In this document: in pieces, positions 7,045 to 24,807 of the stretch
Position numbering within the stretch: position 1 is the stretch's first letter
How the letters are laid out: each line of letters opens with the position of its first letter
NCBI RefSeq assembly: GCF_016801985.1
Contig: NZ_JAEVLS010000003.1
Location: 310,001-374,000 of the forward strand
Direction: 5' to 3'
From: Steroidobacter gossypii
GTDB lineage: Bacteria; Pseudomonadota; Gammaproteobacteria; Steroidobacterales; Steroidobacteraceae
Length of the DNA stretch: 64,000 nucleotides
The notes under the pieces: model-generated
Database searches by the model: none
What the model saw: only the letters and a program-made list of their open reading frames with translations
What the model was told of the DNA's origin: nothing
Translations under genes and position numbers: made by a program

Positions 7045-7254
7045 GTGGCCCTCCTCAAAAAAATTGCGACTCGATGCGGCCGGGAACCGCTGGCGCTGCG
7101 CTTGTCCAATCGGTTCCGAGCCCGGGCTCGGTACTATAATTCTCCACGGCGGCCGGGACGACCCGCGCGGCTGTTTTAGCACGAGGGACGACCCTCGCGA
7201 TCATGGAGCGCACCATGAATGGTGCTCGCCGGCATCGTCGGATTGAAGATGAGC

Positions 7255-9224: not shown

Positions 9225-9342
9225 TGCGTATGGGGCGACGCAGTCGCGGGGTTAGCTTGCGCGCGCAGGCTGAATCATATCGATCTGATGGCGCACGCGC
9301 AGGGGAAAGTCGTGGAGCGCGCACGATCGTGATAGTCGAGGG

Positions 9343-10260
9343 TCAGCGCGACTTGGGTGAGCGCTGGAACAGGTCGGCGACGACCGAGCGAAGCCAGCGG
9401 TTGCGTTCGTCGTGGTGGAATTTTCGGTGCCAGAACTGTTTCAGGTCGATGCGTGGTGAATCGAAGGGCAGGCCGACCACTCGAAGTTGGGCGGATACGC
9501 GGGAGAAGTAGCGGGCCAGGGGTTCGGGCACGGTCACGATCAGGTCGGATTGCGCAACGATGATGGGGGCGCTGGAGAAGTGTGGCGTCGTGAGCACCAC
9601 CTGGCGGCGCAGTTTGCGACGAGCCAGATACCGTTCGATCACCTCTTCAGTGCGACTCTCCGCACGCACCACGGCATGTTCCAACTGCAGATACTGCTTC
9701 AACGTGAGCTTGCTGGCCGTGACTGGATGATCCGACCGCAGCAGGCTCGCGAACGTATCCGAGAACAAGGTCTGCTGAAAGAAGTTGTGCTTCTTCAGAT
9801 CGGGAAAGTAACCCATCGCCAGATCGATGCTGCCCGCCTCGAGCCCGGCCGCCACATCGTTGGCTGGCAAACTCACCGCACGCACTGCTGCGCGAGGGGC
9901 AAGCCGGCGAAGCTGCTTCAACAGCGAGGGCAGAAACACCACTTCGCCCACGTCCGACAAAGCAAGACTGATGGTCTGATGGCTGGTGGCGGGATCGAAC
10001 GTCGGGGCCGCGACGATATCCGAGCCCACGCGTCCTAGAACGAACCGTGCCGACTCGACCAGCGACAACGCTCGCGGCGTCGGTTGCATGTTGTTGCCGG
10101 AGCGCACGAACAGCGGATCGTTGAAGAAATCGCGCAGCCTGGCCAAAGCGGCGCTCACGGCCGGCTGGCTCTTGCCGAGCTTCACGGCGGCGCCGCTGAC
10201 GCTGCGGCACTCATCGAGCGCCACCAGCGTGTAAAGGAGATTCAGGTCCAGCTCGTTCAC
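9343..10260 (-). CDS. LysR-family transcriptional regulator
   Basis: Predicted DNA-binding regulator of 305 residues. The N-terminal winged helix-turn-helix is clear: LDLNLLYTLVALDE, then AAVKLGKSQPAVSAALARLR, then DPLFVRSG. A periplasmic-binding-fold effector domain follows to the C-terminus. The GTG at 10260 gives the usual LysR N-terminus of a few residues before the HTH; the longer open frame upstream runs through the ligM gene on the other strand and is not used. It diverges from the O-demethylase gene with a 141-base spacer, the classical arrangement in which a LysR protein controls the divergent catabolic gene. The inducer is probably an aromatic acid, by inference from that neighbour. 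Confidence 0.88.
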   Translation of the reverse strand: MNELDLNLLYTLVALDECRSVSGAAVKLGKSQPAVSAALARLRDFFNDPLFVRSGNNMQPTPRALSLVESARFVLGRVGSDIVAAPTFDPATSHQTISLALSDVGEVVFLPSLLKQLRRLAPRAAVRAVSLPANDVAAGLEAGSIDLAMGYFPDLKKHNFFQQTLFSDTFASLLRSDHPVTASKLTLKQYLQLEHAVVRAESRTEEVIERYLARRKLRRQVVLTTPHFSSAPIIVAQSDLIVTVPEPLARYFSRVSAQLRVVGLPFDSPRIDLKQFWHRKFHHDERNRWLRSVVADLFQRSPKSR

Positions 10261-10329
10261 GATTGCCCCTGTCAGGCCCCTATCAAGCCATGAGCCACTA
10301 TCCGTTTGGCAAATACAGCGAATATATAG

Positions 10330-11808
<1,479 letters not shown>

Positions 11809-11814
11809 CGCCGA

Positions 11815-13911
11815 TCACTCGTGCTCCGCCTTGCGGCGGAGCTCCTCGGCGACTTCTTCGGCCGGCAGCATCAGCGTCTCGTCGGACAGCACGACGGCTT
11901 CGGAGATGGTGGGCGATTCGTCATGCGACTCGCCCGCGCTGACAGCCTGTTTGACCGAGGGCAACGAGCTGTCGGCATTGCGCACCACCTTGAAGGCCTC
12001 TTCGGCTTCCAGCGCGCCATAATAGAAATAACCTTGCGCATAGTCGCAGCCCATCCGCTGCAGATCGTTCGCGGCCGCATCGGTTTCGACGATTTCGGCC
12101 ACGGATTTCAGTCCCAGGCTCGAGGTCATCTGCACGATGGCCGCGGCGATGGCGCTGTTGGCGTGAGCGCTGCCGGCGCGATCCACGAACGGCCGGTCGA
12201 TCTTCACATAGCTGAAAGGGAACAGCTGCAGATAGCTGAGCGAGGAGTAACCGGTGCCGAAGTCGTCCAGCATCATCTCCACGCCCAGGCTGTGCAGGTC
12301 GTCGAGTATGTCGCGGGCCGCGCCGGGGTTGCTCATCAGCCCGCCTTCGGTCAGCTCCAGCTTCAGAATCTCCGGCGGCGTTCCCGTGTCTTTCAAGACT
12401 CGCGCGACGAAGGATGTGAACTCGGGATCGCGCAGCGCCGCGGCCGAAATATTCACTGTGAGATAGAAGTCGCGCTCGCGAGGCAGTCGATGACGCCACT
12501 CCGCGGCGAGCGTGCAGACCTGCTGGATGGTCCAGCGGGTGATGGGCACGATCAAACCCACTTCCTCGGCGAGCCCGATGAACTTGTCCGGCGTCAACAC
12601 GCCTTCGATCGGATGCCGCCAGCGCAACAGCGACTCGGCGCCGGCAACCCGCCGATTGCGCAAGTCGACGATGGGTTGATACATCATGTGCAGTTCGCGG
12701 CGCTGGAGCGCGACGTGCAGGTCGGCCTCCAGACTCACAAGGCTGGCGGCGCTGCCGCCCATCGCGGGCTGATAGGCCACGGCGGTCGCGGTGTCATGGC
12801 GCTTGGCGACGGATAGAGCGATATCGGCCTCACGCACGGCTTCTTCGGCGCGTTGCAGGCCCGAATCGATGCAGGTCACGCCGACGCGAGCGGCGGCGTT
12901 GAGGCGATGCTTGCGCAGCTCGAAGGGCTGTTGCAGCTCCCCTTGCAGGATGCCGGCGATGTCGAGCGCGGCGTCCGTCGAGGCAACGTCGAACACCAGC
13001 ACGGCGAACTGATCGCCGCTCCAGCGCGCCAGCACACATTCGAGCTGCGCGGTGGCTTTCTGGAAGCGACGCGCTGCCTGCACGACGAGCTCATCGCCCG
13101 CGGTGTGGCCCAGCGAGTCGTTGATCAATTTGAAACGATCGATATTGATGAGCATCACCGCGAGCCGCTTGCGCCGACGGGTGCGCACTTCTCGCAGCGC
13201 GCGGTCCAGCTGATCCATGAAGTAGCGCCGGTTCGGCAAGCCCGTGAACGCGTCGTGATAGCGAGAGTGCTCGAAGCTCTGTTGCAGGTTCTGACGTTCC
13301 TCGATCTCCATCGCGAGCTTGCGATTGGTCGCCTGCAACTGCCGGCGGGAGAGGGAGAGCGCATCGCGGGCTCGATGCAGGGCGTGCACCAGATCGTGAG
13401 TGGCGAATGCGAGCAGCCAGGCGACCACCGCCAACAACGCGATGGCTGCCGCGAGCTCGCGAGCGGGATACCAGCCGGTCTTCGGTCGTAACGCAAGCTG
13501 CACGTATCCACCAGACAATTCCTGCGCGTACGCCTGCGGAAGTCGGATGCGGCTGATGATGGCGTCGGCGAGCGGCTCGATCTTGCTGCTGACAAAGATT
13601 CTCGGCGCGCCGCCGGAGCCATCGACCTTGGACAGCTCGAAGTCGTACCCGGCATCGACCATCCGGTTCAGCTGCAGCTTGGAGAGCACTTGATCCAACT
13701 CGCCGGCGGAGCCTTGTTGCGCGAGTGTTTGCAACTGCCGCTCCAGGGAGCGGCTGTAGGTCGTGACCAGCGTGCCTGCGGTGGCGCGCATCTGTTCGGC
13801 GCGCGCATTGACGCTCAGCGCGATCAGGCGACCGCCGGCCAGCAGCACGACGGCCAGCACCACGAGGGTGAGCCCCCATTGCGAGCCATGCTTGAAGGAC
13901 GAAAGTTTCAT
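11815..13911 (-). CDS. Membrane-anchored GGDEF/EAL c-di-GMP phosphodiesterase-type protein
   Basis: 698 residues. One TM at ~13-33, an extracytoplasmic sensor of ~120 residues, a second TM at ~152-170, then a coiled region, GGDEF (~215-380) and EAL (~390-640). The GGDEF site reads SGDQF (298-302), so cyclase activity is unlikely. The EAL site reads ESL (426-428), but the other catalytic residues of the family are present: N487, E522, DD 549-550, K570, E609 and Q626. This supports an active phosphodiesterase whose degenerate GGDEF may sense GTP. It is the last gene of the overlapping seven-gene operon, sharing ATGA with the barrel gene, which ties that operon to c-di-GMP control. Confidence 0.88.
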   Translation of the reverse strand: MKLSSFKHGSQWGLTLVVLAVVLLAGGRLIALSVNARAEQMRATAGTLVTTYSRSLERQLQTLAQQGSAGELDQVLSKLQLNRMVDAGYDFELSKVDGSGGAPRIFVSSKIEPLADAIISRIRLPQAYAQELSGGYVQLALRPKTGWYPARELAAAIALLAVVAWLLAFATHDLVHALHRARDALSLSRRQLQATNRKLAMEIEERQNLQQSFEHSRYHDAFTGLPNRRYFMDQLDRALREVRTRRRKRLAVMLINIDRFKLINDSLGHTAGDELVVQAARRFQKATAQLECVLARWSGDQFAVLVFDVASTDAALDIAGILQGELQQPFELRKHRLNAAARVGVTCIDSGLQRAEEAVREADIALSVAKRHDTATAVAYQPAMGGSAASLVSLEADLHVALQRRELHMMYQPIVDLRNRRVAGAESLLRWRHPIEGVLTPDKFIGLAEEVGLIVPITRWTIQQVCTLAAEWRHRLPRERDFYLTVNISAAALRDPEFTSFVARVLKDTGTPPEILKLELTEGGLMSNPGAARDILDDLHSLGVEMMLDDFGTGYSSLSYLQLFPFSYVKIDRPFVDRAGSAHANSAIAAAIVQMTSSLGLKSVAEIVETDAAANDLQRMGCDYAQGYFYYGALEAEEAFKVVRNADSSLPSVKQAVSAGESHDESPTISEAVVLSDETLMLPAEEVAEELRRKAEHE

Positions 13912-14714
13912 CGCCCTCTCGAGCCGAGGAACGCGGTGAACGTCAGCGTCACCGTGATCTTCTCGCTGTCGGAGACTTTGAGGTAGTCGCCCAGCAGCTG
14001 GAACTCACCGCGCTTGAAGGTCCTGCCGATGCCCACAAAGCCTTGCGTGGAATGGGTCGGCGGCAGCACCACGCCCGGCAGAGGGACCAGCACCGCGGGG
14101 TTCGCGGTACCGGTGGAGCCGCCGAGGAGCAAGTTGACACGTTTGCCGTAGTAGTCGGCGCGCGCGCTGGTGAGCTCGGTGCCGAGATTGCCGCTGACAG
14201 ACTTCGCATAGGAAACATTGGTTACGAAGCGCGGTGTCCAGACGTAGGTCAGACCCAGCTCGGGCAGATTGCCATCGGTGGTATCGATCTCGAACTGGCG
14301 CGTCTCGAGCTGCACGGAGAATTTGCTGGTGAGCGCCTGGCTGATGCCGAGGACGCCCACCCTGTAGTCGAACTTGCGGCCGACGTCGTCACCCTCGCCG
14401 TAGTAGGCCTCGGCCAGAAAAGTGAATCGTGAGCTGGGCTCACCCCGGCCCCAAGCGCCGCGCAGCGAACCGTAGGTCAGCTCGGTGTCCTCGACGAACG
14501 TATGATCCACACCGCCGCCCACGAGTGCATTGGGCGTAAGGTAATGCAGATAGCTGAGCGCACCGCCGCCGCCATCGGCATCCGAGTTTCGAAAGTTCGA
14601 GACGTTGCCACTCACTGACAACTTGTCCGGCGGGCGCGCGTCGATCTCGGCGGCGGTGGCGGGAATGGCCGCCGCCATCGACGTGAGACACAGAGCAGTG
14701 AGCGAAAGCCTCAT
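13908..14714 (-). CDS. Predicted outer-membrane beta-barrel protein, unknown function
   Basis: 268 residues with a clear signal peptide (MRLSLTALCLTSMAAAIPATAA, cleaved near residue 22). The rest alternates polar and hydrophobic residues with frequent aromatic strand ends (YLHYLT, FTFLAEAYYG, GLTYVWTPRFVTNVSYA) and finishes in a strand-like TVTLTFTAFLG. This is the pattern of a small outer-membrane barrel of about 12 strands. I do not recognise a specific family. It overlaps the genes on both sides by four bases (ATGA), so it is translationally coupled within the seven-gene operon. A role as an export or anchoring pore for the operon's product is inference only. Confidence 0.7.
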   Translation of the reverse strand: MRLSLTALCLTSMAAAIPATAAEIDARPPDKLSVSGNVSNFRNSDADGGGGALSYLHYLTPNALVGGGVDHTFVEDTELTYGSLRGAWGRGEPSSRFTFLAEAYYGEGDDVGRKFDYRVGVLGISQALTSKFSVQLETRQFEIDTTDGNLPELGLTYVWTPRFVTNVSYAKSVSGNLGTELTSARADYYGKRVNLLLGGSTGTANPAVLVPLPGVVLPPTHSTQGFVGIGRTFKRGEFQLLGDYLKVSDSEKITVTLTFTAFLGSRGR

Positions 14715-16126
14715 GGGGGTGTCACCAACGTTGAATTGGAAGCGCTGTTCTTTGGAGCGTCGACGAGCGTGGCCGCCGTGATCTCGCTGCGATCGAGCGC
14801 GGCGCGGCCCATCGGCAGGAACGAGACGATGTACAGGCGCTCGTCTTCACCGGGCAGCGGCGTGGCGGAGCAGGTGACTTGATACACGCGAGGGCCAATC
14901 TCGATGTGCATCTTGCGTCGCCCGGTGAGGCCCGGCTCCCACCAGCGAGCCGGCATGCCCCCGAGGGTGAGCATCTGCGCCGCGTCGACATCCTTATCCA
15001 AGGCGGCGAACAGGGCCTGCGCGGGTTTGTTGAATGAGAGCAGGCGTCCTTGCGAGTCGATCACCAGCATGGCCTGACCGCTGACATCGAGCGCGGCGTG
15101 TGCGGTGAACTCCTCGGTCTTGTCGTGAATGACCACGAGAGAGAAGCGTCGTCCCGTCTGCGTGAGGTGCCGCACCTGAACCTCGGTGGCGCGCAGTCGG
15201 TCGTCGACTTTGATCATGCTGAGCGGCACGACGCCGCCATTGCCCGTGATCAATTCCTGCACCATTTCCGGATAGGAGAAACGAATGGTCTCGAACAGCG
15301 CATGACCGGACAGCGAATCGCCGCTCTGGAACTTCGACGCTCGCGTGCTGGCGCAGACCACCTGCAACGTATCGCTGTCGACGAGCAGCGCAGGCAAGGG
15401 CATGGCCTCGATCAGCGTCGTCCAGAATTCCTGCCCTCGCTCGGCTTCTGCGCGTGCGACATCCACGTGCGAATGCAGCCGCTCGAAGATCGTGCCCAGA
15501 TATTCGGCGGCGACAGCGCAGGCGAACATCAGGATGGTGAAGACTTGCAGCAACACCGCGTAGAACGCGGACGGCGCATAGAAGCCAGGGAAAGGCGAGC
15601 TCGCGGCGGCGCCCTGCTGGCCGAGGATCACGGCGAGGGACGCGCCGATGGTGCTGAGGCCGGGCACGTACCACCGCAGCTCGGGAGCTTGCGCCAGCGC
15701 CACGACACCCGCGACCACGATCGCAATCAGCGCCATCAAGTACGGTTGCCAGCGCGATAGAAAGATGGCGCCCACCACGGGCAGCACGAAGACCATGAGG
15801 AAGGCCGGGTTCTGCAAGCCGCCGGCGTTCATCCAGACGAATCCCACTACGAGGATGCCGGCCACATGCAGCAGCGTGAGCACCGGGCGGCGTTCGCCGA
15901 CACGTGCAGGCTTGCCGACCACCGTAAATGCGATGTGAATCGCGCCGAGCGCAAGCAGCCCGAGGCAGGCGGCGACGAAGTTGATATCGAGCGCGCTGAC
16001 CAGCCAGGGCACCACCGTTGCGAGCAGAATCGCGAAGATGGTCAGCAGCCACGTGTCATCCAGAAGATGGATGCGTGGATCGGTCCACGTCGGCGCGGGT
16101 ATCAGCTGTGTGTCACCGATGTTCAT
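14711..16126 (-). CDS. Polytopic membrane protein with two PAS-like domains
   Basis: 471 residues. Residues ~26-212 hold six or seven hydrophobic segments, resembling an integral membrane sensor (MASE-like) module. Two PAS-like domains follow in the cytoplasm, starting near residue 236 (EAMPLPALLVDSDTLQVV) and 345 (ALDVSGQAMLVIDSQGR). There is no histidine kinase, GGDEF or HTH domain, so it lacks its own output and must act through a partner. The GGDEF/EAL protein two genes downstream is the obvious candidate. Four-base overlaps occur with both neighbours. The first PAS is followed by a second with a Trp-rich segment (ARWWEPGL). The function is unknown. Confidence 0.7.
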   Translation of the reverse strand: MNIGDTQLIPAPTWTDPRIHLLDDTWLLTIFAILLATVVPWLVSALDINFVAACLGLLALGAIHIAFTVVGKPARVGERRPVLTLLHVAGILVVGFVWMNAGGLQNPAFLMVFVLPVVGAIFLSRWQPYLMALIAIVVAGVVALAQAPELRWYVPGLSTIGASLAVILGQQGAAASSPFPGFYAPSAFYAVLLQVFTILMFACAVAAEYLGTIFERLHSHVDVARAEAERGQEFWTTLIEAMPLPALLVDSDTLQVVCASTRASKFQSGDSLSGHALFETIRFSYPEMVQELITGNGGVVPLSMIKVDDRLRATEVQVRHLTQTGRRFSLVVIHDKTEEFTAHAALDVSGQAMLVIDSQGRLLSFNKPAQALFAALDKDVDAAQMLTLGGMPARWWEPGLTGRRKMHIEIGPRVYQVTCSATPLPGEDERLYIVSFLPMGRAALDRSEITAATLVDAPKNSASNSTLVTPP

Positions 16127-17379
16127 CGCTGCACGACTCCACCGGACGCCTTCGCGTTGCCGGCCGCGACTGTGGCCGAGCCGATCTTGAAATTGTTGCC
16201 TTCGAGAAACGGTGCGGAACGAATCTTTTCTCCGCCACCCTCGGGCTCGAAGTCGATCACCTTCAGCGGCAGTCCGCGCGGCCGCATCACCTGGTTGCCG
16301 CGCAGAATGGGCGAATCGCCGATCACGTCGATGCCGGTGACCTTCGGCTCGATGATGGTGTTGTCGATGGCGCTGCTGGGATTGCGTGGCGTGCCGAGTA
16401 CGAACGCCAGGCCGTAGCCGCTGTTGTGAATCCGATTGCCGCGCACCAGGGTGTCGGCGGAGCCTTTGAGCATGATGCCGTAGGCGGCGAGGCCGTCGAA
16501 CTCGTTATCTTCGATCACGACACCGCGTGCATTCTCGGCGACGATGCCCATGGCCGCGCCGCGACTGATACGATTGCCGCGCGCGACCGCACCAGTGCCC
16601 ATCAACTGCATCGCCGCTTCCTGCGAGTCGAGCAACTCGTTGCGTTCCAGCAGCACCGACACGTTCGCAGTCAGGATGCCGATGCGCTCCTTGCTGAAAC
16701 GATTGTCGCGAATGCTGATGCTGCCGCCGCCATTGTCGGGCTCGCTGCGCACCGCCCAGAGCCCGGCGTCACGATGCCCGGAGAACTCGTTCTTCACCAC
16801 CACGGCGTTGCGGTTGGAGGCGGCGAAGCGCACGCCGACCCGATTGTTCGCGAAGCGATTGCGCTCGAGCATGATCTGGTTGGAGTTCTCCGCCACATCG
16901 ACGCCGACGTCGCACGACTCGATGGTCGTCGTTTGCAGCTTGAAGCGCTCGGCGCCGCGCAGGACGATGCCGGTCGCCTTGCAGTCGCGGATACGAACAT
17001 TCTCGATCGAGACATTCGCGCCGGCGACATCGAGCACCGCGCCGGTGGACAACGTGCTACCGTCGATCTCGGTGCCTTGCTCGTCGCCGACGAGGCGGAT
17101 GCCATGCGCGTTCGCCAACGGCGGGAGCGTGGAGGCCAGCGTGATCTTGGGGACCTGCAACGCGATGACGACTTCAGTGTCGGCCGCGGTGGCTTTGAAC
17201 AACGCTTCACGCAAGGAGCCCGGGCCGCGGTCGTTGCCGCTGGTGACATCGATCGAGGCGGTGTTGGCTGCCTGGCCGGGTGTTTTCTCTCGCGACTCGT
17301 ACCAGTAGCCGAGCCCGACGAAGACCGCGAGCAGCACGAACACCGCGATGGAGATGCTGGAGCGACGGCTAAGCGGCAT
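16123..17379 (-). CDS. Membrane-anchored right-handed parallel beta-helix protein
   Basis: 418 residues. An N-terminal basic stretch plus TM (residues ~9-27) anchors it, and the rest should be periplasmic. From ~90 onward it has repeating coils of 20-25 residues with N/G turns (NRFANNRVGVRF, NEFSGHRDAGLW, NRFSKERIGILT, NEFDGLAAYGIML, NRIHNSGYGLAF), the hallmark of pectate-lyase-like beta-helices (NosD/CASH repeats). Such folds occur in polysaccharide lyases, C5-epimerases such as AlgG, and deacetylation complexes. No catalytic triad could be assigned. It sits between a methyltransferase (11-base overlap) and the PAS protein (4-base overlap). Acting on the operon's glycan is an inference. Confidence 0.75.
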   Translation of the reverse strand: MPLSRRSSISIAVFVLLAVFVGLGYWYESREKTPGQAANTASIDVTSGNDRGPGSLREALFKATAADTEVVIALQVPKITLASTLPPLANAHGIRLVGDEQGTEIDGSTLSTGAVLDVAGANVSIENVRIRDCKATGIVLRGAERFKLQTTTIESCDVGVDVAENSNQIMLERNRFANNRVGVRFAASNRNAVVVKNEFSGHRDAGLWAVRSEPDNGGGSISIRDNRFSKERIGILTANVSVLLERNELLDSQEAAMQLMGTGAVARGNRISRGAAMGIVAENARGVVIEDNEFDGLAAYGIMLKGSADTLVRGNRIHNSGYGLAFVLGTPRNPSSAIDNTIIEPKVTGIDVIGDSPILRGNQVMRPRGLPLKVIDFEPEGGGEKIRSAPFLEGNNFKIGSATVAAGNAKASGGVVQR

Positions 17380-18238
17380 GGGCGCCTCCGGTACGCTGCA
17401 AGACGAACACCGCGTGCCACGACTGTTGCACGGCGACCCTGCCGAAGATCACGTCGATGGGCGTCGACAGCAGCGTCACCGCCGCGATGGCCGACACCGC
17501 GAGCGGGCGAGGCAGCCGTCGCAGATGGGGCAACAACCAGGTTTTGAACGGCGCGGGATCGACGCCGCTGATGGCGCGCAGCTCGACGCCGGCCTCTGCG
17601 AACAGATCCAGGTAGACACTGCGCTGGCGGGCTCGGAACACCGTGGTGTCGCAGTGCTGAGCGACATCCACAGGCGCAGCTTCCAGCAACACCATTCGTC
17701 CACCCGGTGCGAGATGACTCGCCATGCGCTGCGCGGCCGAGCGCAGCGCTTCCGGATCGAGAATGTGCTGAAGCACGGTGACGCCGAGAATCAGATCGAA
17801 TGTTTCTCCCGCATCGAGCTGCGCCAAGTCCTGCACCAGGAAGCGACAGCGGTTTGAAACATTCTTGAGCTCGGCGCGACGCCGGGCTTCGGCGATCATG
17901 GTGGGGCTCAAGTCCATGCCCGTGACGCTGCCGCCTCGTTTGGCGAGCAACGTGCTCCAGCGCCCGACGCCGCAGCCGACATCGAGCACCCGCGTGCCGG
18001 GTTGGATGTTCAGCCAGGGACGCAGCGCCAGGTGCTGGCTATAATGGATCATGCGGTTGTAGAACTCCGGCATGCCGTACGAGCACACGGCCGCAAGCCC
18101 CGAGCCTTCGGCGGCGAAACGCCGCGCGCGATCTTCCCAATAATGTTGGGGCAGGTAGTGCTCGGGCGCCGGCGCGCCCCGGGCGTTCACATGGGCATTC
18201 ACGGGGGCATTCACAGGGACGTTCAAAGGGGCGTTCAT
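17369..18238 (-). CDS. Class I SAM-dependent methyltransferase
   Basis: 289 residues with a Rossmann methyltransferase fold. Motif I is VLDVGCGVGR (residues ~84-93), the acidic post-I residue is in GMDLSPTMI, and motif IV is in FDLILGVTVLQHI. The C-terminal ~70 residues contain a hydrophobic, membrane-proximal segment (PLAVSAIAAVTLLSTPIDVIFG). The first 20 residues are a low-complexity N-A-P-V-type repeat encoded by a 12-bp tandem DNA repeat. The start is ATG at 18238 overlapping the TGA of the glycosyltransferase gene. Within the operon it would methylate the glycan, its lipid carrier or a pathway intermediate; the acceptor is unknown. Confidence 0.82.
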   Translation of the reverse strand: MNAPLNVPVNAPVNAHVNARGAPAPEHYLPQHYWEDRARRFAAEGSGLAAVCSYGMPEFYNRMIHYSQHLALRPWLNIQPGTRVLDVGCGVGRWSTLLAKRGGSVTGMDLSPTMIAEARRRAELKNVSNRCRFLVQDLAQLDAGETFDLILGVTVLQHILDPEALRSAAQRMASHLAPGGRMVLLEAAPVDVAQHCDTTVFRARQRSVYLDLFAEAGVELRAISGVDPAPFKTWLLPHLRRLPRPLAVSAIAAVTLLSTPIDVIFGRVAVQQSWHAVFVLQRTGGAHAA

Positions 18239-18240
18239 GA
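18181..18240 (-). repeat. 12-bp tandem repeat, five copies, covering the methyltransferase start
   Basis: Five degenerate 12-bp units (core GGGCRTTCAC on the plus strand) fill 18181-18240 exactly. On the coding strand each unit reads as four residues of the type N-A/V-P/H-V, giving the methyltransferase a repetitive N-terminus. The array includes the start codon and the stop codon of the preceding gene. A change in copy number by one unit would keep the frame. Confidence 0.75.
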
Positions 18241-19677
18241 AGCCTTCCGCATGAGACTGGTTTTCTCTTCCAGGGGCAGCGTCGTGCTGGCGCTGGGCAG
18301 CGGCTCGTAGTGATCGCGGTACACCCGGCGACCCCACAACTTCATCGCCAGCCAGTTGACGTAACCGACCGTCATCGGTGCGATGTGAGTAAGGGCGTAG
18401 AACAGGTACAGGGGCACGATGGGCGCGATGTAGGCGCGCTCCTGTTTGGGCACCACGGTGAACAACGCGAACACGCCAAGGGCGAGATAGCTGCCAATGG
18501 CCGCGATGAAGTACGTCGGGTTGATCAGCGCGTTTTGCGGAACCAGGTTCGCCAGGAACAGATTGTCGAAGCCGCTGATGAAGCTCAGCACCAGCAGCAG
18601 GGCGCTGATGATCTTCAACGGGTGAACGATCAGCGACAGGCCGCCCAGGTAGATCACGAAATGATACATGGCGAACGGGGTTCGCTTGCTGATGCGCCAG
18701 ATCTCGCTGAAGCGCTCGACGTACACCTTCAGCAGCCCGTAGTACCAGCCCACGCGCTGCGAGAACCAGCGTCGCACGTTGCCCGGGCCTTCCGTGCTGA
18801 CCACCAACCGACCATCGTAGTAGATGCGCTCGCCGTGGCTCAGCAGGATCAGCGCGTTCTGCAGATCCTCGGCGTAGACCGAATGGGTGTGCTCGGCAAG
18901 GGCCCGTTCCAGCGCGCTGCGCCGATAGCAGGAAACACCCGAGGTGATGCTGTAGTCGGCCAGGCTTTCACGCCCGATGCGAAACGCCAGCGCATATTCG
19001 AAGGCCTGGAACCGCGCGAGGAAGCCGTCTGGCTCGATCATCACACGCGGGCACACGGCCGCGGCGCCGGATTGCTGGAAGTCGCGAATGAACCGCTCGA
19101 AATCGATGCGACTGCCGCCGCTCTTGTCGCGAATGCGAATGTCTGGATCGACCACCAACACGGTTTCGATATGTGGCGGCAGACGTTCCAACAGGCGGCG
19201 GATCGCGCCGGGTTTTTTACGATTCACGCCATCGTCGAAACAGCGCCAGCCCGCATGGCGCAGACGGAGCACCGTCGCATCGGTGGAGCCGTCACTGATC
19301 AGCCACACCTTGTCGCGATAGGGCGCGAACGCGTCCATGAACTCATCGAGCAGCGGCTCGAGATTGTAGATGGAGGCGATGATGGCGTACGGACGCACCG
19401 GGACCAGTTGCCGCGCGCCGCTCGGCAGTGCCGCAGATAAATCGATGGACAAGTGACGATTCTCTTCGGTGGGCGCGGTGGCGATGTGCCGGCGACGCAC
19501 ATGCAGGCGCAGAATGAAATCCAGCGCGTCGGTGTAGACGATCAGATTCGCCAGTCCGTACACCAGCAGCGAGAAGCTCGCGGTCTGCAGATTCGCCGCC
19601 GACAGCGCGATCCAGCCGGCGAGCAACGCACATACCCCCAACGGGGCCAACAGACTCCAGGGGGTATTGAATTTCAC
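18235..19677 (-). CDS. Membrane glycosyltransferase family 2 (processive synthase-like)
   Basis: 480 residues. Two N-terminal TMs (~9-28, 33-52), then a GT-A domain with SDGSTD (~128), VVDPDIR carrying the DxD-type D177/D179, and YAEDLQ carrying the base ED (270-271). A QRVGW motif (307-311) follows, equivalent to QxxRW of cellulose and hyaluronan synthases but with Gly for Arg. Several TMs close the protein. This plan suggests transfer of sugars from a nucleotide-sugar donor at the inner face, possibly coupled to extrusion. Start GTG at 19677 overlaps the stop of the radical SAM gene (GTGA). No polymerase or flippase gene is nearby, which fits a self-contained synthase. Confidence 0.82.
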   Translation of the reverse strand: MKFNTPWSLLAPLGVCALLAGWIALSAANLQTASFSLLVYGLANLIVYTDALDFILRLHVRRRHIATAPTEENRHLSIDLSAALPSGARQLVPVRPYAIIASIYNLEPLLDEFMDAFAPYRDKVWLISDGSTDATVLRLRHAGWRCFDDGVNRKKPGAIRRLLERLPPHIETVLVVDPDIRIRDKSGGSRIDFERFIRDFQQSGAAAVCPRVMIEPDGFLARFQAFEYALAFRIGRESLADYSITSGVSCYRRSALERALAEHTHSVYAEDLQNALILLSHGERIYYDGRLVVSTEGPGNVRRWFSQRVGWYYGLLKVYVERFSEIWRISKRTPFAMYHFVIYLGGLSLIVHPLKIISALLLVLSFISGFDNLFLANLVPQNALINPTYFIAAIGSYLALGVFALFTVVPKQERAYIAPIVPLYLFYALTHIAPMTVGYVNWLAMKLWGRRVYRDHYEPLPSASTTLPLEEKTSLMRKAS

Positions 19678-21275
19678 GCTATCGCGACGGCACGTTTGGC
19701 CGTCGCCCTCCTGTCCTGAGGTAAGCGGGACTCGAGCTCGGCGCGCACCTCCTGCTCGGAGGCGACGTCGATTCCATGTTGAGCGAGAACCGGCACACCG
19801 GCGAGGATCCATACCAGCGAGCGCAGCCGTGAGGGCAGGTGCGCGGCGCGAGGTTGCAGCTCTGCCAGCACCGCTTCGAAATTGCGCTCGATCTGCAAAA
19901 TCACTTCGCGCACCGTGGGATCCATGGGCAGGATCTTGGCCGGCTGCTCCCATTCGATGTGGGTGCCGTCCACCTGCCGATGCGCATATTCGGTGTGCGG
20001 ACGAAGCGCGGGGTCTCGCGCAAAGGCCGCGCCCGAGAACGGAATGACATAGGGATACATACCGATCTCACAACCTTGCCGCAGCCATCGATACGCTTCG
20101 CGCAAGGTCTCCGCCACGTCCTCGAGCGTCGCGCGCGGCGAGCTCAGAATCAGATCCAGAAACGGCGTGATGCCCAGCTTCAAAGTCTCGGTCAACATCG
20201 GCTCGATGTGACGATGGATCTGGCCCTTGTTGAATTCATTCAACACGTTGCGCGAAAAGTTTTCGATGCCGAAACCGAGTACGCGGAAACCGGCGCGGCG
20301 CATCGCACTCAGACGCTCCTCGCTCATGGCGTCGATGCGATTGGTGCTGATGAACTGCAGATGCTTCGGCAGCTCGCCGGACTGCTTGGCGGCCACGATG
20401 CCCTCGCACAGCGGCAGCACGCGGCGGTCCTTGGAGAAAACGAAAATGTCGTCCTGGAAGATGATGGTGCGCACTCGCGGATGCGTCGCGACGATGCGCT
20501 TGATCATCGCGAGACATTCATCGGCATCCAGCCGGGCGATCGAAGCCACGCTGCCTTGCGCCTCGTGCAGAAAATTGGTCGAAGAACAGAACGTACAGCC
20601 CATCGGGCAGTAGTTCAGCGTGATCAGACGCACCGAGCGGATTTCCGCCAGCGCCGCTTCCCGCGCCGCTTTGGTGGGCAGGCCGCCGACGCGATAGGCC
20701 GCTTCGAGCCTTTCCCAGTAGGCCTCGTACGGCATGCTTTCATAGGGCGTGGAGAAGATCGCGGCGCGCAACTCGTCATGGTTCAGCGCCGTCTGCGGCA
20801 ACCGAAGCAGCGTGCCGTCATCGCGTCGCTCGGCGGTGCCAACGATGCCACCCAACGATTGCTGCGATTGCAGCCGCGTGGCGATTTCCAGCAGCGGGCG
20901 TTCACCTTCGCCGAGAATCACGCGATCGAACGGACCGAGATCGAACATCAGCTCGGGACGAAACGTCGCTTCCATGCCGCCGGCGACCATGAATGCCTTG
21001 GGCGCCAGCCGTCGGGCGAGGTGCGCCAGCTCCAGGTCGAACTTCAACGTCATGCCGGTGGTGGACACGCCGATGACATCCCATGTATCGCGCAATATTT
21101 CCTTTTCGAGCGCGCGCTCCGGCGGCCCCACGCAACAGTTGGGATCGAAGACTTTGACCTCGACGCCTCGTTCTGCCAGTACCCCGGCCAGCCGCCACAC
21201 GCCAAGCGGCGGCGCCAGAAAGGTGTACTCCCCGCAATGTGGGTCGTAGGGGCCCACTAAGAGAAATTTGGGCAA
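19674..21275 (-). CDS. B12-binding-domain radical SAM protein
   Basis: 533 residues. The first ~140 residues form a cobalamin-binding-like Rossmann domain (PPLGVWRLAGVLAERGVEVKVFD). The radical SAM core follows with the 4Fe-4S cysteines C223, C227 and C230 (NYCPMGCTFCSS). Class B enzymes of this shape perform difficult C- or P-methylations or carbon rearrangements (for example in hopanoid and antibiotic pathways). The only available start is TTG at 21275; the upstream frame has no ATG or GTG. It is the first gene of the seven-gene operon, with the promoter presumably in 21276-21462. The substrate is unknown; being next to a glycosyltransferase suggests a lipid or sugar-linked intermediate. 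Confidence 0.82.
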   Translation of the reverse strand: MPKFLLVGPYDPHCGEYTFLAPPLGVWRLAGVLAERGVEVKVFDPNCCVGPPERALEKEILRDTWDVIGVSTTGMTLKFDLELAHLARRLAPKAFMVAGGMEATFRPELMFDLGPFDRVILGEGERPLLEIATRLQSQQSLGGIVGTAERRDDGTLLRLPQTALNHDELRAAIFSTPYESMPYEAYWERLEAAYRVGGLPTKAAREAALAEIRSVRLITLNYCPMGCTFCSSTNFLHEAQGSVASIARLDADECLAMIKRIVATHPRVRTIIFQDDIFVFSKDRRVLPLCEGIVAAKQSGELPKHLQFISTNRIDAMSEERLSAMRRAGFRVLGFGIENFSRNVLNEFNKGQIHRHIEPMLTETLKLGITPFLDLILSSPRATLEDVAETLREAYRWLRQGCEIGMYPYVIPFSGAAFARDPALRPHTEYAHRQVDGTHIEWEQPAKILPMDPTVREVILQIERNFEAVLAELQPRAAHLPSRLRSLVWILAGVPVLAQHGIDVASEQEVRAELESRLPQDRRATAKRAVAIA

Positions 21276-21462: not shown

Positions 21463-22698
21463 CTATAGCGTGGCTTCGACGCCGGCGGAAAATCGGTTGC
21501 CGCGATAGTCGTAGTCGGAGAGGTCGGCTTTGTTTTGGGTATATGCGTAGCGGGCGACCAATCGCCAGCGGCGGGACAGGGTGCGGGTCACGGCCAGACC
21601 CAGGTCGCTGCGGCGTTCGACGCCATAATCGGAGAGGTCGTAGTCGCTTTGCCGAAGCGAAGCATCGAACTGTACTGTCCAGTCGTTGTTGATGGGATGC
21701 TCCACGTCCACTCTCACTTCGTGGCGGGTCGAAGACAGCGTCGCTGCGTCGTAGTCGGCGAGCTCCAGCCGATATGACGCGTAGATATCCCAATCGGCAT
21801 AGGTCCATAGCAGCGCGGCGCTGCCTTCATGCCGCAGACCGCTGATCCCGCTGTATTCGTCGAGGCCGTCGATGTGATGCAAGCGATAGCGCGCGTACAG
21901 GTACAGATCCGGGCGCAACCCTCGACGTGTTTGTAACGAGAGCGTCTGTCTGCTCTCGAAGCCGGAGCCGTCGAGCAGCGAATAACCAGCCCGCAGGCCG
22001 GCGTCGTGGGTCCAGTCGCCCGTCGCCCAGCGGTAACGCGCGCCGCCGTAGCCGGTCCACTGATCGAATGTATCCAGATCCTGGTAGTCGGTGAGCATCA
22101 ACGCGCCTTCCAGGCGCCAGGCGTCCGCCACCGGAGTGCTCACCGCGAGTTGCAGATCGGCGAAGCTGTCTTCGGTGTCGCTGATGCCAAGCACATTGGA
22201 GTTGGAGACCAGCGCCACGTTGTCGTCGTAGCCCAGAGCGAAAGCGGCGTAGCCGTACCATACACGAGGCGTTTCCTTCGGGCGCAGCTCGGCCAGCCTG
22301 CTTGCGGCCAGCGCGTGCAAACGTTCGTCGCTGGTGGCGGGTCTGACTTTGTCGAACCAATCGGCGGCCGTGGCGGAATCGTTGCGAGCCAGCGCGACCA
22401 GGCCGAGGTTGTAATGAGCGAGCCCGGCCATGCTCGGCGTGCGGGCGGCTTCCAGAAATGCGGTCTCCGCGCGGGAGTAATCGCCGCTGCGATAGGCAGC
22501 GACGCCGATATTGAAATGAACCGCGGGGCCGGTCATGCCTGCGGCGAGCGCCGCTTCGAAGTCAACCAACGCTTTGGAGTAGTCGCCGGCCTGAAAGGCA
22601 GTGCTGCCGGAGCGGAACTGTCGTGCGGCCTCGTCGCTGGCCGCCAATGCTTCGATGCCGACCAGTAACAGCGCGAAATTCAATAACGCGGCAGGCAA
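21463..22698 (-). CDS. TPR-containing outer-membrane beta-barrel protein
   Basis: About 411 residues with a signal peptide ending ALAA. Residues ~22-135 carry three or four TPR units (GDYSKALVDFEAAL, GDYSRAETAFLEAA, NDSATAADWFDKV). The remaining ~270 residues are aromatic-rich amphipathic strands ending in FSAGVEATL, typical of a 14-strand barrel. A periplasmic TPR plus a C-terminal barrel resembles surface lipoprotein assembly modulators (Slam), but homology is not proven. The start is uncertain: TTG at 22698 gives a plausible signal peptide, while an ATT at 22722 would overlap the upstream stop. It follows the DDRGPP protein and may export or anchor it. Confidence 0.72.
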   Translation of the reverse strand: MPAALLNFALLLVGIEALAASDEAARQFRSGSTAFQAGDYSKALVDFEAALAAGMTGPAVHFNIGVAAYRSGDYSRAETAFLEAARTPSMAGLAHYNLGLVALARNDSATAADWFDKVRPATSDERLHALAASRLAELRPKETPRVWYGYAAFALGYDDNVALVSNSNVLGISDTEDSFADLQLAVSTPVADAWRLEGALMLTDYQDLDTFDQWTGYGGARYRWATGDWTHDAGLRAGYSLLDGSGFESRQTLSLQTRRGLRPDLYLYARYRLHHIDGLDEYSGISGLRHEGSAALLWTYADWDIYASYRLELADYDAATLSSTRHEVRVDVEHPINNDWTVQFDASLRQSDYDLSDYGVERRSDLGLAVTRTLSRRWRLVARYAYTQNKADLSDYDYRGNRFSAGVEATL

Positions 22699-22717: not shown

Positions 22718-23572
22718 TCAATTGCGGGGTGAACGACTCGGGCGTTCGTTCGAGCGGATGCGATCCTGGGGAGGAACGCGGGCGTCCGATCGGGCGCGAG
22801 CATCCGGCCGACCGCGATCATCTGGCGGGCCGCGATCATCGGGAGGGCCACGGTCGTCGGGAGGACCGCGATCATCCGGCGGGCCGCGATCGTCGGGAGG
22901 CCCGCGATCATCCGGCGGGCCGCGATCATCGGGAGGCCCGCGATCATCCGGCGGGCCACCCGACGACCGTGGCCCGCGATCATCCGGCGGGCCGCGATCA
23001 TCGGGAGGCCCGCGATCATCCGGCGGGCCACGGTCGTCGGGAGGACCGCGATCATCTGGCGGGCCGCGATCATCGGGAGGCCCGCGATCATCTGGCGGGC
23101 CGCGATCGTCGGGAGGCCCACGATCATCCGGCGGGCCACGGTCGTCGGGAGGACCGCGATCATCCGGCGGACCACGGTCGTCTTGCTCGCGCCGACGTTC
23201 TTCGGCGGCGGCCCGGCGAGCTTGCTCACGTTGTTCGTTGGCTTCCTTGGCTCGTTCTTTGGCGGACTGCGCGACTTCGCGCCCCAGCTCCTGAGCTTCG
23301 CGAGCGCGATTCTGGCCCTGGGCGCGATCCTTCTCTTTATCTCCATCCTGACCCGGCCGGTTGTCGCGTCCGCCGGGCTGCGGGGCGGACTTGCGCTCGG
23401 GCAGCGGGATTCGGCGAACGACTTCGTCGGGCAGCTTGGCATCAGGATCCACGATGATCTGCATGGTCACGTCGAGGTCGTCGCCTCTGCGTTCCCGCTT
23501 CGATGCGGACTGCTGTTGCGCCAGAGCGCCGTGCGCCAGCAAGCACAGGGCGATGATGGTTACGTACCTCAC
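22718..23572 (-). CDS. Secreted low-complexity protein with about 20 DDRGPP repeats
   Basis: 284 residues. Signal peptide at 1-19 (start GTG, hydrophobic IIALCLLAHGALA), a short N-terminal domain (VTMQIIVDPDAKLPDEVVRR), then a basic and acidic coiled stretch (KERAKEANEQREQARR). About 20 DDRGPP hexapeptides follow, one replaced by PRSSGG, and a short R/S/P-rich tail. The repeats should be extended and highly charged. No enzyme motif is present. It starts 65 bases after the anti-sigma gene and its stop touches the start of the TPR/barrel gene, so the four genes look like one sigma-controlled envelope operon. A structural or periplasm-spanning role is speculative. Confidence 0.7.
   Translation of the reverse strand: MRYVTIIALCLLAHGALAQQQSASKRERRGDDLDVTMQIIVDPDAKLPDEVVRRIPLPERKSAPQPGGRDNRPGQDGDKEKDRAQGQNRAREAQELGREVAQSAKERAKEANEQREQARRAAAEERRREQDDRGPPDDRGPPDDRGPPDDRGPPDDRGPPDDRGPPDDRGPPDDRGPPDDRGPPDDRGPPDDRGPPDDRGPRSSGGPPDDRGPPDDRGPPDDRGPPDDRGPPDDRGPPDDRGPPDDRGPPDDRGRPDARARSDARVPPQDRIRSNERPSRSPRN
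22803..23184 (-). repeat. 18-bp tandem repeat array encoding DDRGPP hexapeptides
   Basis: About 21 near-identical 18-bp units in direct tandem, with plus-strand forms such as GCGATCATCCGGCGGGCC and variants with CGGTCGTCGGGAGGA. Read on the minus strand they encode D-D-R-G-P-P units. One unit at 22956-22972 is inverted in place relative to the others, which gives P-R-S-S-G-G in the protein. The units contain no spacers, so this is a coding microsatellite and not a CRISPR array. Confidence 0.9.
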
Positions 23573-23637
23573 TCGTGGTCGAATGATGGTCGCCCACCCC
23601 TCGGGTGGCAAGCAGGCAGCTGTGACGGGCGTCATGG

Positions 23638-24213: not shown

Positions 24214-24807
24214 TCATACACGAGCCAGCCGTGAATTTCGTTCCGAGGCCAGCAGTTCCCGCAACCTGGCGCGGGCGCGGTGCAATCGTGACTTCAACGT
24301 ACCCAGCGGCACGTCCATGATCTGCGACAACTCCGGCAGGCTGTAGTCCTCGATATCGTGCATCGACAACACGACCCGGTGTTCTTCGCCGAGGCTTTCC
24401 CACGCAGCCAGCACCCGCTCCTGGGTGAGCTCTCGTTCCATCAGTTCGGCCGGACCGGCCGAAGGATCGATGTATTCCTGGCCATCGTCTTCGCCGCTGT
24501 CCGCGGGCGCGTCGGCGACGAACTGCACCGGCGAGCTGCGCTCGCGCCGCACCTGATCCACGAAGATGCGATACATCACCCGCAGCGCCCACGGGCGGAT
24601 GCGGTCGAGCCGACGTAACTCATCGAGCTTGGGAAACAGGCGGACCAGCAGTTCCTGCACCAGGTCTTCGGCGCGGTCCACCGCTCCAGTCCAGCGAAAC
24701 GCGGCGCGGTACAGGGCGGGGACGTGCGGTCTCAGCAGATGGTCGAACTCGGCTGCCGCGTTGGCATGCGACGGACGATCGCGCTTCTGCAGAACCATGA
24801 TTGCCAT
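24214..24807 (-). CDS. ECF-type RNA polymerase sigma factor
   Basis: 197 residues with both ECF regions. Region 2 begins FDHLLRPHVPALYRAAFR and carries the core-binding and -10 recognition helices (AEDLVQELLVRLF, RPWALRVMYRIFVDQVRR). An acidic linker of ~30 residues follows (ADSGEDDGQEYIDP). Region 4 contains SLGEEHRVVLSMHDIEDYSLPEL and the recognition helix VPLGTLKSRLHRARARLRELL. ATG at 24807 is used. It heads an operon with the anti-sigma-like gene, the DDRGPP protein and the TPR/barrel protein, which are its likely regulon core. No consensus ECF promoter was identified upstream by eye. Confidence 0.9.
   Translation of the reverse strand: MAIMVLQKRDRPSHANAAAEFDHLLRPHVPALYRAAFRWTGAVDRAEDLVQELLVRLFPKLDELRRLDRIRPWALRVMYRIFVDQVRRERSSPVQFVADAPADSGEDDGQEYIDPSAGPAELMERELTQERVLAAWESLGEEHRVVLSMHDIEDYSLPELSQIMDVPLGTLKSRLHRARARLRELLASERNSRLARV

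Follow-up and report, generated by a model that had tools for sequence, protein, structure and literature searches.

What does a run of overlapping genes make when it combines a B12-binding-type radical S-adenosylmethionine (SAM) enzyme with a membrane glycosyltransferase of family 2 (GT2) and several putative envelope proteins, and do these genes belong together at all? The run in question occupies positions 11815–21275, on the minus strand, of a 64,000-nucleotide stretch of the Steroidobacter gossypii genome (hereafter, the window), and a first-pass annotation had proposed it as an undescribed operon for a glycan or glycolipid, linked to cyclic dimeric guanosine monophosphate (c-di-GMP). In the order of transcription, its seven genes encode the radical SAM enzyme, the GT2 enzyme, a SAM-dependent methyltransferase, a right-handed beta-helix protein, a membrane PAS protein, a small predicted outer-membrane beta-barrel and a GGDEF/EAL protein. 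The seven genes are a real conserved unit, and we propose that they may serve an envelope glycan.

A conserved seven-gene unit

The stop and start coordinates bear out the layout as first described, in position, strand and order. All six junctions overlap, by 4 nt (radical SAM/GT2), 4 nt (GT2/methyltransferase), 11 nt (methyltransferase/beta-helix), 4 nt (beta-helix/PAS), 4 nt (PAS/barrel) and 4 nt (barrel/GGDEF-EAL), suggesting a single transcript with coupled translation across the seven genes. Between positions 11600 and 21600, no match to a sigma-70-type promoter was found (1.8 expected), and terminator-like sites were near expectation (10 versus 6.6).

Conservation of the gene order was assessed in 39 loci, fetched through exact short peptides of the window radical SAM protein, so that only relatives of at least about 60 % identity were within reach. 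Each locus was examined in three ways: through tblastn with the window proteins, through the positions of starts and stops, and through profiles. Since the profiles draw for the most part on these same loci, their matches arise partly by construction; tblastn is the more independent test of order and misses the barrel in most of the distant loci. The whole set is spanned by 25 of the 39 loci, the other 14 being truncated by contig ends. By profile, 18 of the 39 carry all seven genes in the order and strand of the window (L008–L014, L018, L019, L021, L023–L026, L028, L031, L036 and L042), a count that includes two loci in which the last gene is cut by a contig end (L009 and L023) and one in which the PAS gene is split, possibly through a sequence error (L018). 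L043 also follows the window order, its barrel being recognised by eye only; the barrel gene was detected in the other 24 region-spanning loci, as a weak match of 30 bits in each of L035 and L038 and in two pieces in L020. In this last locus, the barrel and GGDEF/EAL frames (15122–18319) are continuous without a stop, a topologically odd arrangement in which the barrel match is divided between two frames and a sequence error is likely.

Six loci are rearranged (L016, L020, L027, L035, L037 and L038). The GT2 gene sits behind the GGDEF/EAL gene in L016, L020 and L027, while in L035 it is preceded by genes for the methyltransferase, a DUF2334 protein and a GNAT protein. In L037, the methyltransferase and barrel genes precede GT2 and a hybrid histidine kinase replaces the GGDEF/EAL gene, and in L038 a GGDEF domain is fused to the PAS protein, followed by the barrel, a response regulator and a histidine kinase, with no EAL gene. 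Eleven of the 14 truncated loci match the window order as far as their sequence reaches; the three that deviate have the methyltransferase gene directly behind the radical SAM gene (L017 and L040) or GT2, GNAT and DUF2334 genes upstream of it (L045). A fortieth locus, L056, reads radical SAM, DUF2334, GNAT, GT2, methyltransferase, beta-helix, PAS, barrel (37 bits) and GGDEF/EAL. Across the 39 loci, the radical SAM gene is followed immediately by GT2 in 29 and by another gene in seven, and in three the next gene lies off the contig. The overlap pattern of the window (4/4/11/4/4/4) is repeated in L008, L010, L011 and L012; L009 departs from it at the last junction (+14), and many, though not all, junctions overlap in the remaining loci.

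The carriers are gammaproteobacteria and, according to record titles, members of the Acidobacteriota and other phyla, these labels being in many cases those of metagenome bins and possibly wrong. Because the gene order is conserved in other phyla, a chance association is excluded. The closest named relatives of the window radical SAM protein belong to Steroidobacter and Peristeroidobacter, with carrier strains titled Steroidobacter agaridevorans SA29-B, Peristeroidobacter soli JW-3 and P. agariperforans KA5-B, none of which is known to be a pathogen and in which a direct search for the product would be feasible. The radical SAM gene was found in 7 of 40 relatives including the window genome (1e-30). 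Among 196 genomes drawn from the order, only the window genome had it (1e-100; the other known carriers falling outside that draw), whereas four did among 297 from the phylum of G218, the Acidobacteriota-titled genome that contains L036 (1e-80; three of the four known already from the locus search). GT2 was found in 2 of the 196 genomes of the order (1e-60; the window genome and G086) and in 4 of the 297 (1e-50), identical to the four with the radical SAM gene, the other 293 matching neither protein at the thresholds used; few candidates were scored per genome in these searches (four to five in the 297), so weak copies could be missed. Starting from GT2, five of the six genomes found (2/196 and 4/297) thus also carry the radical SAM gene, and the sixth, G086, holds a remnant GT2 only. 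One copy of the radical SAM protein was found in each of 21/21 carrier genomes (E≤1e-15), and GT2 gave a single match in 13/13 carriers searched (1e-20). Few genomes thus carry the set and its distribution is patchy, yet it is cohesive, its homologues travelling together instead of being scattered.

In a radical SAM tree of 37 rows, the Pseudomonadota-titled rows, L040 excepted, group with the window; the remaining phyla fall outside this group and are poorly resolved. In pairwise identity, each of the other six proteins follows the radical SAM protein (r 0.92–0.97, not corrected for shared ancestry). Median identity between the window and distant loci, cut or misplaced proteins excluded, is 63 % for the radical SAM protein (nine loci), 53 % for the methyltransferase (seven), 41 % for GT2 (nine), 32 % for the GGDEF/EAL protein (two), 28 % for the beta-helix protein (seven), 24 % for the PAS protein (six) and 24 % for the barrel (one). 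Conservation is highest in a core made up of the radical SAM enzyme and the methyltransferase.

The proteins and their predicted roles

The radical SAM protein (19674–21275, 533 aa; its TTG start at 21275 is uncertain) matches the Pfam B12-binding (PF02310, E value 4.2e-16, 59.3 bits, cut-off 32.1) and Radical_SAM (PF04055, E value 1.8e-10, 41.7 bits, cut-off 29.5) domains. The CxxxCxxC motif (C223, C227 and C230) is invariant in 24/24 aligned family members, as are C290 and C402, either of which is a candidate hydrogen donor. The protein resembles the B12-binding radical SAM superfamily (ApyD, BchE, HpnR and Sden_1168) in both domains and in this motif, but it constitutes a separate family, far below the NCBIfam cut-offs: the best score of the window member is 70.5 bits of 750 needed, and its best-matched models are ApyD (a family involved with ribosomally synthesized and post-translationally modified peptides, RiPPs), TIGR04013 and Sden_1168 (a P-methyltransferase family). 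Weak matches across the family at E≤1e-8 were to HpnJ (18/24), HpnR (15/24) and rSAM_ladder (20/24), the window protein scoring 42.7 bits on HpnJ against a curated cut-off of 577.6. A sequence search of the PDB returned a fragment of AprD4 (7.3e-6, profile positions 272–346).

The GT2 protein (18235–19677, 480 aa, GTG start at 19677) matches Glyco_trans_2_3 in Pfam (3e-7), and a PDB sequence search returned no relative at 0.1 and, at E≤10, only matches of 0.41 or worse. Its AlphaFold 2 (AF2) model (pLDDT 85) points to a membrane GT2 synthase-type fold: Foldseek places hyaluronan synthases at ranks 1–13 (E value down to 7.6e-12), followed by BcsA and chitin synthases, and VIA returned hyaluronan synthases at Z 20.0–23.1 (best 23.1, root-mean-square deviation (rmsd) 3.5, 367 residues aligned) and cellulose synthases at Z 15.6–20.5. 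Further down the VIA list than the cellulose and chitin synthases come widespread GT2 folds (Z about 14–15) that carry little information, and the absence of a poly-N-acetylglucosamine (poly-GlcNAc) synthase structure from the VIA list excludes nothing. The usual motif series is present, including AED, with QxxRW replaced by QRxGW, whose Q, R, G and W are invariant in 25/25 family members (QRVGW in the window). For comparison, the best eight PgaC proteins, selected for holding QxxRW, read QRLRW; PgaC occurs in 14/196 genomes of the order. The enzyme thus appears to follow the plan of a processive synthase and to depart from it at one defining residue. PgaC is also the NCBIfam model matched by most members (23/25, best E value 6.9e-13), the window protein reaching 25.1 bits against a curated cut-off of 422.3, and NodC is matched by 3/25. 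By such curated cut-offs, PgaC, HpnJ and other named families were rejected as the identity of the cassette proteins.

Hints of an amino-sugar substrate come from these PgaC and NodC matches together with the GNAT and DUF2334 genes beside GT2. The latter mark a minority subtype, with a DUF2334 deacetylase-like gene and a GNAT gene in 5/40 radical SAM loci (L020, L027, L035, L045 and L056). The DUF2334 proteins exceed the PF10096 cut-off of 26 bits (38.5 in L035 and 43.9 in L020) and carry DDxH in the three aligned copies reaching it (DxH in a fourth, cut there) and HGL(H/N)H in 5/5, in keeping with NodB-like carbohydrate deacetylases; the D and H residues of these motifs are putative metal ligands. 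No PDB relative was found by sequence, matches to SufS being at chance level. PF10096 occurs in at least 4/21 carriers, a lower bound since the DUF2334 gene of G393 was missed. Both genes also occur in L047, a radical-SAM-free locus of G086, a genome that gave no radical SAM match. Here, beside the DUF2334 gene and a phage integrase, a GNAT domain and the rear portion of the cassette GT2 share a single frame (9297–10667, minus strand), which could be a new fusion but looks like a remnant.

The class I methyltransferase (17369–18238, 289 aa) matches Methyltransf_25 (1.5e-23). The beta-helix protein (16123–17379, 418 aa) has an N-terminal hydrophobic stretch (residues 3–21) and matches Beta_helix (PF13229, 1.9e-35) and NosD (PF05048, 1.5e-23); no catalytic set was recognised in it, and the PDB sequence search returned NosD, dehydroshikimate dehydratase, VexL and alpha-galactosidases over short stretches. 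The barrel (13908–14714, 268 aa) gave no Pfam match at 1e-3 and only chance-level PDB sequence matches (0.12 and 2.2). The small outer-membrane barrel of the first description is nonetheless recovered as a predicted model of 14 strands (AF2, pLDDT 78), for which Foldseek returned FadL and OmpG and, lower, AlgE and PelB; such structural matches indicate a barrel and little more.

The membrane PAS protein (14711–16126, 471 aa) is polytopic and lacks an output domain. It gave no Pfam match at 1e-3, and the best of several weak PAS matches in the PDB sequence search was TyrR (0.00073). The description of this protein as a seven-helix, double-PAS protein holds in part: one PAS domain is supported, PAS_8 matching 18/21 family members at E≤0.1 (best 7.8e-11, window member 0.0012), but the second is weakly supported, and a simple scan shows six strong hydrophobic stretches, not a clear seven. 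The GGDEF domain to which the PAS protein is fused in L038 has an intact GGDEF motif, a hint that the standalone form either controlled a c-di-GMP enzyme in the past or acts as the partner of one.

The GGDEF/EAL protein (11815–13911, 698 aa) matches EAL (6.8e-71) and GGDEF (1.5e-36) in Pfam. In the window, the GGDEF site is degenerate (SGDQF) and the EAL motif reads ESL, with the E, N, E, DD, K and E positions, the catalytic ones of EAL domains, all kept. Among 20 aligned proteins (cut proteins, those of >760 aa and those of L017, L038 and L040 being excluded), the first E, DD and K are kept in 20/20 and the last E in 19/20, while a canonical GG(D/E)EF occurs in 0/20 and GGDQF or SGDQF in 14/20. 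These residues suggest that the protein is probably a c-di-GMP phosphodiesterase. The proposed link to c-di-GMP accordingly stands in so far as an EAL protein with kept residues is present, but it comes from this one protein, which has no EAL counterpart in L037 or L038, and none of the seven proteins matched PilZ (Pfam, 1e-3).

What the cassette may make

The reading that we prefer, at about even odds, is that the cassette, as one inherited functional unit, assembles and exports an amino-sugar envelope glycan. At the inner membrane, GT2 would transfer a sugar from a nucleotide donor. While still on the cytoplasmic side, that sugar, whether as donor, as primer or as lipid-linked acceptor, would be remodelled and methylated by the radical SAM enzyme and the methyltransferase. 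The anchored beta-helix protein may then handle the product in the periplasm, and the predicted 14-strand barrel may pass or anchor it at the outer membrane. The PAS protein would sense a signal and the GGDEF/EAL protein would lower c-di-GMP locally, setting the output; in the one subtype, the DUF2334 deacetylase-like and GNAT proteins would act on the amino group. A narrower version, in which the dedicated B12-type radical SAM enzyme rebuilds the glycan sugar by ring rearrangement, epimerisation, deoxygenation or C-methylation and the QRxGW motif of GT2 accepts the modified residue for synthase-type secretion, is tentative and, in our estimate, carries well under an even chance. We know of no radical-SAM-modified envelope polymer, and none was found in the literature searched for this system.

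The layout is shared with the alginate (Alg8/Alg44/AlgG/AlgE) and cellulose (BcsABC) systems, in that an inner-membrane GT2 synthase, a beta-helix protein (AlgG in the alginate system), an outer-membrane barrel and a c-di-GMP protein occur together. The first-pass annotation had drawn this comparison, and it survives in predicted fold and layout but not in the replaced QxxRW arginine, nor in the absence of a conserved co-polymerase or tetratricopeptide repeat (TPR) scaffold. The cassette further differs in that a probable c-di-GMP phosphodiesterase stands where those systems have a receptor, with no PilZ match among its seven proteins, and its barrel (14 predicted strands, 268 aa) is smaller than the matched AlgE chains of 410–466 residues. 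PgaABCD/IcaADBC are alike in the membrane GT2 motif series and in a deacetylase-like protein (present in one cassette subtype), and PgaA is an outer-membrane barrel, as is found here; they differ in the PgaC score and the QxxRW motif of the GT2, and we know of no counterpart in them to the radical SAM, methyltransferase and beta-helix genes.

A closer chemical precedent is the HpnI–HpnK–HpnJ set, in which a glycosyltransferase, a deacetylase and a radical SAM enzyme act in turn on an amino sugar to make bacteriohopanetetrol (BHT) cyclitol ether (PMC12583986). The earlier view that a radical SAM enzyme is without precedent in such a setting consequently requires qualification: HpnJ acts after a glycosyltransferase on a lipid-linked sugar (PMC12583986), and it is for synthase-type envelope systems that none was found. 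The two sets are alike in bringing together genes for a glycosyltransferase, a deacetylase (in the cassette, DUF2334 subtype only) and a radical SAM enzyme (PMC12583986), but the cassette radical SAM protein is far below the HpnJ cut-off and the cassette adds methyltransferase, beta-helix, barrel, PAS and EAL genes. Squalene-hopene cyclase (PF13243, 1e-20) was absent from the window genome (97.63 % complete) and from all six genus genomes searched, the window genome included, and a hopanoid pathway was rejected for the window on this ground. Among carriers, some of which besides the window genome are incomplete bins, it was absent from 15/21 and present in 6/21. The analogy is therefore one of chemistry and not of substrate, hopanoids not being the general substrate.

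Several observations weigh against assembly of an envelope glycan. Gene order and co-occurrence are silent on chemistry, and the order itself is not rigid, the seven loci with a gene other than GT2 behind the radical SAM gene being L016, L017, L020, L027, L035, L037 and L040. The arginine column of QxxRW is glycine in 25/25 cassette GT2 proteins (G310 in the window), and processive polymer synthesis is therefore not assured. The Foldseek alignments of GT2 to hyaluronan synthases are loose (template modelling score 0.43–0.55, rmsd 6.4–20.9), its top VIA match is the archaeal mannosyltransferase PcManGT (Z 25.4, rmsd 3.5, 328 aligned), and the XrtP-associated glycosyltransferase model is also weakly matched by 18/25 members. 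The best matches of the barrel, FadL and OmpG, are not polysaccharide exporters, and the envelope proteins are poorly conserved across phyla (24–28 %) in comparison with the radical SAM protein. The conserved set has neither the co-polymerase nor the TPR scaffold usual in known synthase systems, and it shows no PilZ match. Finally, the deacetylase pair is absent near 35/40 radical SAM loci, the kin of the window among them, and PF10096 was not found in the window genome.

Some of these features would be accommodated by the main rival, a glycolipid pathway resembling HpnI–HpnK–HpnJ on a non-hopanoid lipid, in which GT2 adds one or a few sugars, the radical SAM enzyme rearranges or methylates the sugar, and the barrel and beta-helix proteins move or hold the lipid. 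The BHT cyclitol ether pathway itself (PMC12583986), the weak family matches to HpnJ, HpnR and rSAM_ladder, the mannosyltransferase at the head of the VIA list, the altered QxxRW (which speaks against a processive enzyme) and the fatty-acid transporter FadL among the best barrel matches all favour it. However, the HpnJ score is less than a tenth of that needed, the squalene-hopene cyclase is missing from most carriers including the window genome, and Foldseek ranks hyaluronan synthases first for GT2, so we regard a glycolipid product as possible but rather improbable.

It is less probable again, and in our view unlikely, that the cassette is a divergent version of a known synthase-dependent exopolysaccharide system of the poly-GlcNAc, alginate or cellulose type, to which the radical SAM enzyme and methyltransferase are local add-ons. 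The alignment of the GT2 motif series with PgaC and the hyaluronan/cellulose synthase-like predicted fold agree with such an origin, but the PgaC score is far short of its cut-off, PilZ is missing from the seven proteins, and an add-on is hard to square with the GT2-first search, in which only the remnant-bearing G086 lacked the radical SAM gene. Natural-product clusters often contain B12-type radical SAM enzymes and small methyltransferases, and the best NCBIfam models of the window radical SAM protein (ApyD, TIGR04013 and Sden_1168) could likewise be taken to indicate a small glycosylated metabolite, such as a signal or antibiotic-like natural product, instead of an envelope polymer or lipid. 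We consider this very unlikely, since the region-spanning loci carry barrel, beta-helix and membrane synthase genes and no nonribosomal peptide synthetase or polyketide synthase was found among the conserved open reading frames (precursor peptides of <80 aa were not looked for).

Neighbouring genes and biological meaning

Upstream of the cassette, across a gap of 187 bases, and outside the conserved seven, a protein with TPR and BBP2_2 barrel domains (Pfam; 21463–22683, minus strand, start approximate, by eye) belongs to a block headed by an extracytoplasmic function (ECF) sigma factor (NCBIfam; 24214–24807, minus strand). The ECF, anti-sigma and TPR-barrel genes stand in the same place in L008, L010 and L011 (tblastn), and the end of the TPR-barrel gene is found in L009 (clustering). 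The block was absent from L012 (5 kb upstream) and had no match in other loci with long flanks, many flanks being too short; the TPR-barrel neighbour was seen only in Steroidobacter and Peristeroidobacter loci, and the block was set aside as a part of the conserved unit for this absence elsewhere. Between its anti-sigma-like and TPR-barrel genes lies a gene whose protein contains an extended series of PDDRG-type repeats (22718–23629, minus strand). On the other side, a vanillate/3-O-methylgallate O-demethylase gene, ligM (10351–11808, plus strand; 749.1 bits, cut-off 580), converges on the operon and ends 6 bases from it. The only Rfam match in the window is a Guanidine-II (mini-ykkC) riboswitch outside the operon (7150–7196, plus strand; 36.2 bits, gathering threshold 32). 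No long gene follows it immediately on the plus strand, where only a short frame of roughly 43 codons was seen by eye.

The first-pass annotation had known of no named pathway with this composition, and we likewise found none in the family libraries (Pfam and NCBIfam) or in the literature searched, which held no description of the seven-gene system. All of its parts come from known superfamilies; the radical SAM component is the new element for synthase-type envelope glycan systems, for which the literature searched gave no precedent. If assembly and export of an envelope glycan is the correct reading, the cassette would be a cross-phylum envelope system without an existing name, built on a radical SAM family of its own. 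Radical SAM chemistry would then extend to secreted or envelope glycans, and the cassette would offer a natural test of the role of the QxxRW arginine in membrane GT2 enzymes.

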